A stretch of DNA of 64,000 nucleotides. It comes from Bermanella marisrubri (GTDB taxonomy: Bacteria; Pseudomonadota; Gammaproteobacteria; Pseudomonadales; Oceanobacteraceae). The stretch spans positions 2,321,001 through 2,385,000 of the forward strand of contig NZ_CP051183.1 of the NCBI RefSeq assembly GCF_012295615.1, read 5' to 3'. How positions within the stretch are numbered: the stretch's first letter is position 1; each line of letters opens with the position of its first letter. Shown here in pieces: positions 49,029-53,392 of the stretch. Both the position numbers and the translations under genes were made by a program. The notes under the pieces were generated by a model. That model made no database searches and was not told the origin of the DNA. It saw only the letters and a list, made by a program, of their open reading frames with translations.

Positions 49029-49112
49029 TTGTAAACAAACCTAAACCTGAGAATTTTATCTATTATGCGGATCTAGCTTCGTTTGGCAAAGTGATATCCA
49101 TATAGAAAGTAA

Positions 49113-49144
49113 ACACCGCACTAATGGGGTAATCAGTGCGGTGT
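49113..49144 (-). terminator. Terminator of the aldehyde dehydrogenase gene
   Basis: Perfect 10-bp stem ACACCGCACT / AGTGCGGTGT with a 12-nt loop; on the minus strand it is followed by TTTACTTTC. It lies 12 nt after the stop at 49157. Confidence 0.8.
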
Positions 49145-49156
49145 CTATGATTATGC

Positions 49157-50965
49157 TTAGGACTGTTGATCGGCAGGTAACGGATAGGCAATACGTTTAA
49201 TATTCAACAAATGACGGTAGCTAACGTTATCACTAGTCGACCCACAACCCTGAGTGCCGCAGCCTAAGGTCCATGACAACTGCAAGTTATTGTTTGCACC
49301 GATACATCCTAATGTTGCAGGCGTATTGATCAGGATACGGCTTACATCCACTATTCGTGCATATTCCTGAATGGCTTCTTCGCTATTACTATGCATAACT
49401 GCAGTATGCCCAGCCCCTTCATTATTCAAAATACCCGCTGCTGTTCGCAAGGCTTGCTCTTGATCAAGAATGCGAGTGAGAGAAACGAGCGGCAATAACT
49501 TTTCTTTCATCAAAGGGTGTTGAATCGAATCGTCAGAATCGACAATAGACATTTCAGCAATGATCAATTTGATCGGATAATCGCGCTTAATACCAAGTCC
49601 ATCACATACCTCTTGAGCACTTTTGCCAATGTAATCCCTATTGAGCGAGCCATGGGCGAATAATGATTCCATAATGGCATGCAACTCAAAGTGATTTAAG
49701 ACAGCAGCACCCGCGTCAATCGCATATCCAACGAACTGATCGTAAATAGCGTCATCCACCAGTAGATTGTTTTCTGAACCGCAAACTACACCGTTATCAA
49801 AGCTCTTACTGAACACGACATCCTTCGCTGCTTTTTCAACATCGCAAGATTCTTCTATCCAAACCGGCGCATTACCTTTACCCACACCGATTGCCGGCGT
49901 ACCCGACTGATAAGCGGAAGCCACCATCGATGGGCCGCCGGTTGCCAGAATAAAGTTTAAATCGGGATGCTTCATAAAGCCTTGAGTTAACTCTCGGCTT
50001 GATGGCATTTGCGAAGTTTGAATAAGATCAACCGGTAAACCTAGCTCTTTGAGCTTTGCCTGCATGGCTTTAACTGCTTTCAAGCCCACGTTTTTAGCTC
50101 GGCGGTGGCTACTGATGATAACCGCGTTTCGAGATTTTAAAGCGATCAAACTTTTAAATACTAGGGTTTCTACAGGATTGGTAACTGGAATCATGGCAAA
50201 AACGATACCCATGCTTTGTGCGATTCCTTTAATACCATCATGTTCTTCAATGATACTGCCAACACCAGGCTTGCCGATCAGATCATGAGCGACTGCCAAT
50301 GTGCCTAATTTAATTTTCTCAATCTTATGTTCCGCCACGCCCATCCCTGATTCTGCAACGGTCTCTTTTGCATAGATTTCAGCATCATCGGCAATCACTT
50401 GAGCCAGCGCTTCAATGGCTTCATCTATACGGCTTTCCAATAAAGGCTGAATATCCAAATAGGCCTGCTTAGCTTTACTGATCATGAAATCCACTTCTTT
50501 AATCGGCGAGTTTGCCATTGCGCTATCGATAAGTGGCTGCTGCATCAATTCTTGTGGCTGGGTGAGATTGAGTATGACCTGTTCTGCTACTTGCGCATTT
50601 TGGGTAATTAACCCTAATAACGCCTCACGGTCTAACACAAATGCATGAGTGTCCTCTAATGCAATCAAATTTAAACTCAGCTTTTTTCCTGAAAAGAGTT
50701 CCCGGGCGGCCAAAATATCACCCGTTGTATACCGCCACGGTAATACTGCCTGCCTTTCTAACTGAGTATCTTCGATTTGAGCAGCAATTTGACCTGATAC
50801 AAGGATGTAGCATGTAGTCGTTACTGTTCCCTGAGCAATCAGCGTCTGACCGGCTTCAATTTGAATGGTTGGGTAAGAAGAAAAGTCTTCGCCCAATATC
50901 GCGCTCATATCGTGCGCATGTGGCATTTTATGACTGGTATTAGTGCGTTTTTCAGCTGTGGCCAT
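49157..50965 (-). CDS. CoA-acylating aldehyde dehydrogenase with N-terminal cNMP-binding-like domain
   Basis: 602 residues. Residues about 33-135 form a cyclic-nucleotide-binding-like barrel (IEAGQTLIAQGTVTTTCYIL, LVSGQIAAQIED, YTTGDILAARELFSGKKL), and about 155-595 match the acetaldehyde dehydrogenase half of AdhE: ETVAESGMGVAEHKIEK, MIPVTNPVETLVFKSLIALK, ATGGPSMV, and catalytic Cys395 in FDNGVVCGSENN. It should interconvert acyl-CoA and aldehyde with NAD(H). The barrel lacks the Arg of the canonical cAMP phosphate cassette, so its ligand is open. No alcohol dehydrogenase half. Divergent from the gene at 51129; single-gene transcript with terminator. Confidence 0.85.
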   Translation of the reverse strand: MATAEKRTNTSHKMPHAHDMSAILGEDFSSYPTIQIEAGQTLIAQGTVTTTCYILVSGQIAAQIEDTQLERQAVLPWRYTTGDILAARELFSGKKLSLNLIALEDTHAFVLDREALLGLITQNAQVAEQVILNLTQPQELMQQPLIDSAMANSPIKEVDFMISKAKQAYLDIQPLLESRIDEAIEALAQVIADDAEIYAKETVAESGMGVAEHKIEKIKLGTLAVAHDLIGKPGVGSIIEEHDGIKGIAQSMGIVFAMIPVTNPVETLVFKSLIALKSRNAVIISSHRRAKNVGLKAVKAMQAKLKELGLPVDLIQTSQMPSSRELTQGFMKHPDLNFILATGGPSMVASAYQSGTPAIGVGKGNAPVWIEESCDVEKAAKDVVFSKSFDNGVVCGSENNLLVDDAIYDQFVGYAIDAGAAVLNHFELHAIMESLFAHGSLNRDYIGKSAQEVCDGLGIKRDYPIKLIIAEMSIVDSDDSIQHPLMKEKLLPLVSLTRILDQEQALRTAAGILNNEGAGHTAVMHSNSEEAIQEYARIVDVSRILINTPATLGCIGANNNLQLSWTLGCGTQGCGSTSDNVSYRHLLNIKRIAYPLPADQQS

Positions 50966-51128
50966 GATAAATCATCCTTGTCATTGAAATAGCGTGAACT
51001 GTCTACTCAATCTAAGCATAAAAGACTTGTAAGAACAAATCATTAGACTAGAATCACTTCTCATAAAATAAAAATATATCAAATAAGAAATATTCTCACT
51101 ATTGATAGACGTTTTAAGGGGAAAGCGG

Positions 51129-52349
51129 ATGGACCGACTATATCGAAGGGAGGTGGAGCAAATCCTTGGGATTTATCCTCCATTCCAAATTAAGGAGTTA
51201 CATATCGACCCAGAGAAAGAACTGCTGGAAGTCGAAATAGAAGAACAACTCAAACAAACGAGACGCATTTTCCAGGCCAATAGGCCAAAAACAAAACGTG
51301 TGCAATGGCACCATACGAAACTCGGACGTTTCTCCACCGTCATCACGCTTTATGCAACGCCCCATACTTTTAGTAAACATCGCACCATCAATCCACCAGC
51401 GTTCATTGGCCCAGAAGACAGCCAATACACCTACCATTTACAGCAAATGGTTGTATTAGCGGCGAATAACAACCTAAAAACCGATGGTATTCAAAAGCTA
51501 TTGGAAGTAGATCGCAGCATCATTAATCAAATTCTGGCGGACAGCGAAAACCAAGAACAAGAACAACAAGCGAATACCACTTTGCCACTGGAAACAGATC
51601 CCATCTGGAAAAGTATTATTCGCCATGAGATTCCGTTTAAAACTCAACTGGCACCATTACGATTTTTATTGTCTAAGCTTGAGCTGAATTGCATGAACGC
51701 AAAGGACGATCCGAGCGTTATGCAAAATGCAGTGGCGACGTTACGTCAGTTCTTCATCAAAAATGCTCGTCAACTTAAAAGTGAATATGCGCAAATTGGC
51801 GTGTTAAACACGACTCCTAGCGAGAAACAAACAGAATCTTCGGAGCAAAGCGAAGGCACCAAAAAGCGCGTAACACTGACTGTAGATCACCCTATTTGGC
51901 ACAGCATTTTGCAGGGAGAAGTAGACCTTCTTTCTAAAAATATGGGGTTAAACTTATTCATAACCCAATTAAAAACGCTTTATAAAAAGGCAAACGATGG
52001 ACAAGAGCAAATGCAAGTTGCACGAGAACTTTTGTCATATCTGAAAAAGAATAAAAATAATCTACGTAACGAGTTGATGTCGATCTCACGCATGGTTAAG
52101 CAAATGAATGAACAACCTGAAAAGGTTGATCTGCCTGCGCCGGGTCATCAACTATGGAGCGATATTTTAGCGGGTCGTACCTATATTGAGTCTGATAAAA
52201 TGGCGTTGAAGCTTTTACTCGTAAAAGCACGAGCATTAGAAGACCAGCACGAAGCATCTGCTTTAATATGTGATTACTTTAATCGCAATAAACGCTCCAT
52301 GGACAATGAACTACGTCAACTTGAGCAACATATAACAGCTGCTGTTTAG
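51129..52349 (+). CDS. ISL3-transposase-like DNA-binding region fused to three Trp repeats
   Basis: 406 residues from the ATG at 51129 with an AAGGGGAAAGCGG site. The first ~90 residues have the strand order of the ISL3 transposase N-terminus (FQIKELHIDPEKELLEVEIE, RVQWHHTKLGRFSTVITLYA) but lack the zinc cysteines; about 100-137 resembles the ISL3 helix-turn-helix (LQQMVVLAANNNLKTDGIQK). The remaining part holds three repeats starting at Trp160, Trp257 and Trp343: DPIWKSIIRHE, HPIWHSILQGE, HQLWSDILAGR, each ending in N-x3-[LM]-x2-E. There is no DDE catalytic domain. Function unknown. Confidence 0.7.
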   Translation: MDRLYRREVEQILGIYPPFQIKELHIDPEKELLEVEIEEQLKQTRRIFQANRPKTKRVQWHHTKLGRFSTVITLYATPHTFSKHRTINPPAFIGPEDSQYTYHLQQMVVLAANNNLKTDGIQKLLEVDRSIINQILADSENQEQEQQANTTLPLETDPIWKSIIRHEIPFKTQLAPLRFLLSKLELNCMNAKDDPSVMQNAVATLRQFFIKNARQLKSEYAQIGVLNTTPSEKQTESSEQSEGTKKRVTLTVDHPIWHSILQGEVDLLSKNMGLNLFITQLKTLYKKANDGQEQMQVARELLSYLKKNKNNLRNELMSISRMVKQMNEQPEKVDLPAPGHQLWSDILAGRTYIESDKMALKLLLVKARALEDQHEASALICDYFNRNKRSMDNELRQLEQHITAAV

Positions 52350-52387: not shown

Positions 52388-53392
52388 ATGGGTAACATCT
52401 CTATTTCAAGTCAATTAACCGACCTAGATACTGCAGTAGAAAAGATTGAGGCTGGGGAGTTTCTAGTTATCGCGGCCGATGAGTCTGTTTTAACGCAACT
52501 ACCGAGCGGCAACTGGATCGGTGGTAGTATCCCCTATTTTATGGGCGAGCAAGGCGGAACCGTTAGTAAGGAACAGGTTTTCATTCAAACCGTAGAAGGT
52601 ATTCAAGGTAACGCTCAACCTCGCATTACGCCATACGATGTAAAATCGATTAATCGTATTGCGCAAGACGCACCAGACAACGGTTTCACTATTGTGATTT
52701 TGCCAGCGGGAACGGATGTTCATGCCGACTACGCAAAAAATGCTCCTGGCTACGACAATATGTTCTTTACTCCCATTGTAGGTTGGATCTCCGGCATGCA
52801 CTTGGATGATGTCGAAAATAGCAAAGCACAAACTGTATTTGGCCCAGGTGCAATGATGATGGATGACAAAGCTATCGCCATGCACGTGGCCTTGCCTGAA
52901 AATCAAGTGGCCAATGTACAAACCATTAATCTATTTGAACAAGGCAAGGGTGCGAAGATCCGCTTCGACCAAACTGGCTTTAATGTAGATGCTTGCACCA
53001 TTGATGGACAACCAAGCTCCCTAACTCAATATGTTAAAGACAACAATATTGATACGCGCTTACCATTGGTGGCGGACTACAACGGTATCAATGTGAACGT
53101 GAGTATTCAAAGCGTCAATGCTGATAACATCGATTTATACGCACCTGTATTTGCCGATGTTGAATACCAGTTCGCAACACCCGTAGCGGATTACGTACAA
53201 AGCTTTAACCAAGCACTAGAAACACAGGATACTAAGAACACTGCCTTTAGCTGTAACTGTATTCTTAACTTCTTGTACTCTGAGCTAGAAGGAAAGCAAA
53301 CTTCGAACTTGATTGGTCCAATTACATTTGGTGAAGTGGCCTATCAGTTGTTAAACCAGACACTGGTTTATATGACGCTCGATAACCAGTAA
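52388..53392 (+). CDS. FIST-like protein of unknown function
   Basis: 334 residues, no signal or membrane helix. The start has EFLVIAADESVLTQLPSGNW and GGSIPYFMG, and the end SCNCILNFLYSELEG with GPITFGEVAYQLLNQTLVY resembles the closing strands of FIST_C sensory domains (inference). It stands alone rather than fused to a kinase or cyclase. It lies 38 bp after the ISL3-like gene on the same strand and is probably co-transcribed. Confidence 0.6.
   Translation: MGNISISSQLTDLDTAVEKIEAGEFLVIAADESVLTQLPSGNWIGGSIPYFMGEQGGTVSKEQVFIQTVEGIQGNAQPRITPYDVKSINRIAQDAPDNGFTIVILPAGTDVHADYAKNAPGYDNMFFTPIVGWISGMHLDDVENSKAQTVFGPGAMMMDDKAIAMHVALPENQVANVQTINLFEQGKGAKIRFDQTGFNVDACTIDGQPSSLTQYVKDNNIDTRLPLVADYNGINVNVSIQSVNADNIDLYAPVFADVEYQFATPVADYVQSFNQALETQDTKNTAFSCNCILNFLYSELEGKQTSNLIGPITFGEVAYQLLNQTLVYMTLDNQ

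Follow-up and report, generated by a model that had tools for sequence, protein, structure and literature searches.

A cyclic-nucleotide-binding-like barrel joined to an acylating-type aldehyde dehydrogenase in Bermanella marisrubri and other Gammaproteobacteria

Architecture of the fusion gene and its locus

The window analyzed here, a stretch of 64,000 nucleotides from Bermanella marisrubri, carries on its reverse strand an open reading frame at positions 49157..50965 that starts with ATG, contains zero internal stops and encodes a 602-aa protein. Open reading frame analysis, Pfam, NCBIfam and AlphaFold2 identify the product as a fusion of a cyclic-nucleotide-binding (CNB)-like barrel and an acylating-type aldehyde dehydrogenase. 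The barrel occupies residues 33–135 (50561..50869, reverse strand; Pfam, profile comparison and AlphaFold2), with Pfam cNMP_binding (PF00027) matching residues 35–123 (E 9.1e-12, 45.2 bits against a cut-off of 27.5). The dehydrogenase half occupies residues 149–595 (49181..50521, reverse strand; NCBIfam, alignment and Foldseek), including a Pfam Aldedh match at residues 154–551 (E 5.1e-23) and a cysteine, Cys395, encoded at 49781–49783. A preliminary description of this DNA, made from its letters, had proposed the same two domains in the same order, CNB barrel then AdhE-like half, and the Pfam and NCBIfam matches bear this out.

Directly after the stop codon of the fusion gene, pattern matching marks a terminator-like hairpin of 16 pairs with a T-rich tail (49110..49147, reverse strand), and sites of this pattern number 6 in the region compared to 5.7 in shuffles. 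The position of this 3′ hairpin suggests that the fusion gene is transcribed alone. Upstream, an intergenic region defined from the sequence (50966..51128) is common to two divergent transcription units, the second of which runs on the forward strand and consists of a gene pair absent from the preliminary description. Partner 1 (51129..52349), recognized as a conserved neighbor and modeled, is a 406-aa protein with an N-terminal beta domain followed by helices, and partner 2 (52388..53392) is a 334-aa DUF6976 protein (PF22396) with a C-terminus that is weakly FIST_C-like by hhalign. A candidate divergent operator, TGAGAA-N4-TTCTNA, picked by eye from the intergenic alignment, was found twice with at most one mismatch against 1.75 expected in the window and was dropped.

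Distribution and evolution of the fusion

Whole-genome searches detected the fusion in 9 of 44 genomes of the window's own family (E ≤ 1e-100, window included) and in 5 of 22 genomes of a second family (E ≤ 1e-95). A pattern-based scan of contigs from 84,980 species returned 14 loci, 12 of them already found and two new (Teredinibacter, L069, and Marinibactrum, L075), and a contig scan with the window protein alone as query found nothing. Carriers include Bermanella, Oleispira, Gynuella, Reinekea (including R. forsetii and R. blandensis), Teredinibacter, Marinibactrum halimedae and one Gammaproteobacteria MAG, with further fusions in genomes G144, G150 and G192; all named carriers are Gammaproteobacteria and most of the carrier genera are marine. 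The two-domain order, which the preliminary description had suggested looking for across genomes, is thereby known from 18 distinct loci in 16 genomes, window included, and each of the 18 encodes it in one uninterrupted frame. No further member came up at E ≤ 1e-92 when 369 genomes of the class and 398 of the phylum were sampled evenly, an absence that is soft because a single query sequence was used and only three candidates were scored in the genomes listed. Neither the plasmids (E ≤ 1e-60) nor the phages (E ≤ 1e-20) searched contained a record that covered 80% of the query.

We compared 46 enzyme halves in a tree comprising the 18 fused proteins, 6 AdhE proteins and 22 stand-alone proteins from the same order, leaving out four non-fused hits without a locus and counting a protein as fused when over 110 residues precede the enzyme core. 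All fused proteins fall into a single clade with support of 100/100, recovered in 100% of 200 bootstrap trees, that stands apart from the 28 non-fused relatives on a stem of 1.71 changes per column, with long-branch joins flagged among some stand-alone rows and L075 also a long row. Before the core, fused rows carry 139–189 residues and non-fused rows 2–78, in agreement with the earlier claim that AdhE-like and stand-alone relatives are without the barrel (28 of 28 at or below 78 residues, against at least 139 in every fused protein). The single supported clade fits one fusion event, after which no member is seen to have lost the N-terminal extension, a pattern consistent with a CNB domain acquired once and with an enzyme half that forms a subfamily of its own.

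A conserved enzyme half and a divergent barrel

We next consider the dehydrogenase half, which matches the superfamily best and yet falls under every curated cut-off among the best 25 of the 35 NCBIfam models matched, leading us to reject membership in AdhE or EutE. The top model is AdhE at residues 149–593, with 399.9 bits against a cut-off of 951, and the cut-offs of PRK15398 (236 against 403), TIGR02518 (350.5 against 620.1) and SauS (318.4 against 600) are likewise missed. The protein also ends at residue 602, without the C-terminal iron alcohol dehydrogenase half of bifunctional AdhE. Among the best 50 Foldseek matches listed for the model of the whole fusion, only aldehyde dehydrogenase superfamily chains appear, and we class ranks 1–33 as acylating-type, by title in every case but 3k9d ("probable aldehyde dehydrogenase"); the best solved relatives of the enzyme half are AdhE (6ahc, 6tqh), SucD (8cei) and a Geobacillus acetylating aldehyde dehydrogenase (5j78). 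In an alignment of 15 fused proteins, all of the 18 but L035, L040 and L044, residues Asn263, Gly364, Asn365, Cys395, Glu398, Glu488, Lys489, Glu516 and Thr521 are invariant, as is His520, so that the Cys395 singled out in the preliminary description is present in 15 of 15. We take Asn263, Cys395, Glu398, Glu488, Thr521 and His520 to matter for catalysis in this superfamily, and the invariance of these signature residues argues for retained activity. The cysteine with its neighboring residues and the structural matches place the enzyme half among the acylating-type aldehyde dehydrogenases, where it shares fold and catalytic signature with the AdhE N-terminal half and with EutE-type and SucD-type enzymes. 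It differs from all three in its N-terminal CNB barrel and its own long-stemmed group, and from AdhE also in lacking the alcohol dehydrogenase half. Within its own genome, the window protein matches only two other sequences at E ≤ 0.001, each of them partial and 25–29% identical, and an iron alcohol dehydrogenase considered as metabolic partner has no match above cut-off (one lies below, 21.5 against 31.3 bits), so an ethanol-type AdhE route is not evident.

The N-terminal domain is a member of the CNB superfamily by Pfam score, structure prediction and profile comparison. AlphaFold2 modeled the fusion with a mean pLDDT of 79.6 and a pTM of 0.73, and the barrel with pLDDT 89–94 (means of 10-residue blocks from 31 to 120), in the order of strands and helices expected for a CNB barrel: strands at 33–36, 41–43, 51–57, 60–66 and 71–79, a helix at 87–92, strands at 99–102 and 106–112, and a helix at 113–122. 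Helices 113–122, 124–135 and 138–152 link barrel and enzyme, with the linker less surely modeled (block 131–140, pLDDT 66), and residues 1–22 and 541–579 have pLDDT below 50, leaving part of the C-terminal region of the enzyme poorly modeled. Pfam detects the CNB domain in 14 of the 15 aligned members at E ≤ 0.01, with one member lacking a match. A profile of 12 of the 15 N-domains, from which the most divergent (L072–L074) were left out, matches solved CNB proteins including PKG, PKA-R, Epac and CRP, with the best E-values summing several CNB repeats per chain and single-domain CRP at about 1e-11. The preliminary description had made its reading depend on the fold of residues 33–135, for which the model and profile indicate no fold other than the CNB barrel.

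In contrast to the enzyme (residues 153–595), with a mean pairwise identity of 57% across the 15 aligned members, the barrel (residues 33–135) averages 25%, and within it G58 alone is invariant while G39, Q45 and D66 are kept in at least 90%. In CRP and PKA, a glutamate of the phosphate-binding cassette contacts ribose and an arginine contacts phosphate. We used as reference the CRP-like protein of the same genome, which keeps the canonical cassette FGEMGLF...PRSAW, and found at the glutamate position Ala in 8 members, Ser in 2, Val, Ile and Met in 1 each and a gap in 2, with Glu in 0 of 15. Seven of the 15 members keep the arginine; the window protein has Ala at the glutamate position and Leu at the arginine position, the latter in line with the preliminary description, which saw no usual phosphate-binding arginine. 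The loss of the glutamate, the survival of the arginine in some members and the fast divergence of the barrel go beyond that description. Eight of the 15 members, the window protein among them, have neither cassette residue, and the cassette regions of L072–L074 are shortened, although the placement of single residues is unsure, above all in L072–L074, because the cassette region diverges fast. By its glutamate and arginine positions, the barrel thus falls outside the cAMP-binding CNB domains of CRP/PKA type: on the basis of these residues we reject a canonical cAMP switch, and the barrel is not expected to bind cAMP or cGMP canonically. A consensus of the phosphate-binding cassette is given in Table 1 of a 2007 CNB survey (PMC2246266).

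The same genome has seven CNB domains, that of the fusion included, and its four class III cyclase matches above cut-off make synthesis of cAMP or cGMP probable. One of the other CNB domains lies in a frame of ~630 residues (L091, G000:C1:331772-332017) in which, by eye, Gln replaces the cassette glutamate and apparent CBS domains follow the CNB domain. A role in a defense system was considered and rejected: PADLOC reported no more than 15.9 bits to part of a TIR-effector model across barrel residues 34–73 (E 0.0012), which we ascribe to chance or to a CNB-like resemblance, and had no match on either partner protein.

Partner genes and possible roles of the barrel

The divergent gene pair, encoding a protein of ~405 aa and a DUF6976 protein, adjoins the fusion gene in 13 of the 18 loci, one of which (L061) has an 84-aa frame in between. 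In L054 the first partner is present and is cut by the contig end, and the neighborhood of one locus (L051/L065) is uninformative because only ~150 bases of upstream sequence exist. The pair is not adjacent in three loci with full flanks, from Gynuella (L056), the second copy of Reinekea G2M2-21 (L057) and Marinibactrum (L075). Among 144 genomes sampled from the order, DUF6976 occurs in four (G000, which is the genome of the window, G007, G084 and, in pieces, G093). The sample contains two fusion carriers, G000 and G084, each with DUF6976, and G007 and G093 have no fusion match; the chance of two random genomes both falling in the DUF6976 set is 6/10296 by hand arithmetic on a small count that ignores relatedness. 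DUF6976 was found in none of 14 control genomes. Mean column identity is 75% for DUF6976 (10 members) and 56% for the fusion (15 members), in sets that differ. We consider this linked gene pair to be candidate partners of the fusion.

Comparison of the partners with known proteins gave few leads. The C-terminal ~110 columns of DUF6976 (225–333) align with the FIST_C profile (9 loci) at hhalign E 4.5e-4, against E 0.15–0.36 for three control profiles, one of them reversed, and share the pattern GPITFGE...NQT / GFYSYGE...NQT; with an HHalign probability of only 33%, the likeness is just a lead. Pfam gave no FIST match for DUF6976, its profile found nothing up to E 10 among solved structures, and no paper in the literature searched mentions it. 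For partner 1, the profile found nothing better than E 0.74 among solved structures, and the model (pTM 0.38) had no PDB fold match at E ≤ 0.001. Among 10 members of partner 1, Pfam weakly matched DUF7077 in 4 (best E 7e-5; the window's own member scores 18.2 bits against 27) and an ISL3 zinc ribbon, known from transposases, in 2 (best E 0.079), and we treat both as leads only. By eye, partner 1 of the window (51129–52349) has three repeats of ~75 residues with HPIW..IL.G-like starts after its beta-rich N-terminus.

CNB domains are best known as switches through which cAMP or cGMP controls kinases, channels and transcription factors. Their fusion to other modules is also known: Table 1 of the 2007 survey lists CNB domains fused to pyridine nucleotide-disulphide oxidoreductase, histidine kinase, CBS and AAA ATPase domains, which resemble the present case in joining a CNB domain to a non-DNA-binding functional domain and include non-canonical cassettes (PMC2246266), and a figure legend in PMC7729029 includes a CNB domain in its list of domains depicted alongside forms of phosphoglycerate kinase. 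Family 2B encapsulins likewise join a conserved module of another kind to a CNB domain that varies strongly, with 19% pairwise identity in that family, but this module is a shell protein and not an enzyme, with the CNB domain its sole relation to the fusion (PMC8346489). CNB–enzyme fusions as a kind were thus already known. The combination with an acylating aldehyde dehydrogenase is new as far as searched: the main text of the 2007 survey, which names many other fused domains, has no occurrence of "dehydrogenase" (PMC2246266), and a literature search that reached neither most subscription papers nor protein-domain databases had no description of such a fusion among the matches listed.

One intact frame joins a CNB domain to an acylating-type aldehyde dehydrogenase half, and an alternative in which two genes were united by error, be it a frameshift or assembly join, as the preliminary description had allowed for, or a misplaced start codon, draws on the rarity of the architecture only. 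The uninterrupted fusion in 17 further loci, including those of the named isolates R. forsetii and R. blandensis, refutes a frameshift or assembly join; with 18 of 18 homologous frames intact across 16 genomes, the fusion is not an artefact, and we regard this alternative as vanishingly improbable. We lean towards a functional acylating aldehyde dehydrogenase subfamily that acquired its CNB domain once and in which the barrel would regulate or assemble the enzyme without canonical cAMP binding. Such an enzyme would catalyze aldehyde + CoA + NAD(P)+ <-> acyl-CoA + NAD(P)H, and the barrel, as a regulatory or assembly module, would change its activity, oligomeric state or location through the helices that run into the dehydrogenase (residues 113–152). 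In the predicted model, helices 113–122, 124–135 and 138–152 appear suited to passing on a barrel movement or docking event, the trigger of which might be a ligand other than cAMP or the divergently encoded ~405-aa and DUF6976 proteins. That all known members have retained the module indicates that it matters, and its rapid drift and cassette loss speak against a conserved nucleotide pocket in the barrel.

The same drift bears on two other readings of the barrel. A small-ligand switch, the reading suggested in the preliminary description and one in which cAMP, cGMP, a dinucleotide, a nucleoside or another phosphate-bearing ligand turns the enzyme on or off, draws on the clear CNB fold (Pfam, AlphaFold2 and profile), on the arginine kept at the phosphate position in 7 of 15 members, on the four class III cyclase matches in the genome and on described non-canonical CNB domains that sense other signals (PMC2246266; PMC10959531), but a common pocket should hold its residues constant, and the barrel has only G58 invariant, no glutamate in any of 15 members and neither cassette residue in 8 of 15, among them the window protein. 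We consider this switch doubtful for the family and possibly most plausible in the members that keep the arginine. The fast divergence and cassette loss also fit a purely structural or decaying barrel, and the shortened cassette regions of L072–L074 add to the case for a vestigial or structural remnant on an ordinary acylating aldehyde dehydrogenase; a useless domain would, however, be expected to be deleted in some lineages, and an N-terminal extension of at least 139 residues is kept in 18 of 18 proteins across several genera, which makes a remnant decidedly unlikely.

A regulatory or assembly role of the barrel could also extend to the neighboring genes. In a three-gene sensing–metabolism module of these Gammaproteobacteria, many of them marine, the barrel would have ceased to read cyclic nucleotides and would instead dock with, or read the state of, a FIST-like sensor (DUF6976) and the ~405-aa repeat protein, thereby controlling the enzyme post-translationally, a proposal that we put forward tentatively and hold to be rather unlikely; if true, the module would represent a new mode of CNB-domain control over aldehyde metabolism. 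More broadly, a permanently attached CNB domain would place a reactive-aldehyde/acyl-CoA step under the direct influence of a signal, and the linked DUF6976 gene gets a first functional lead. As a compact family that fits a single origin and has members with and without the arginine, the fusions form a natural test set for the loss of nucleotide binding by a CNB domain and its aftermath.

DUF6976 genes also occur away from the fusion. In G007, a DUF6976 gene (L084:4716-5762) has neither the ~405-aa partner nor a fusion within the 14 kb covered, and in G093, a genome with no fusion, DUF6976 lies in separate pieces at about 9175–9838 of L085 and is probably a decayed gene. Gynuella (G084) has two tandem copies of the pair, each a 402-aa protein and DUF6976, at L083:6237-10973, away from its fusion gene.
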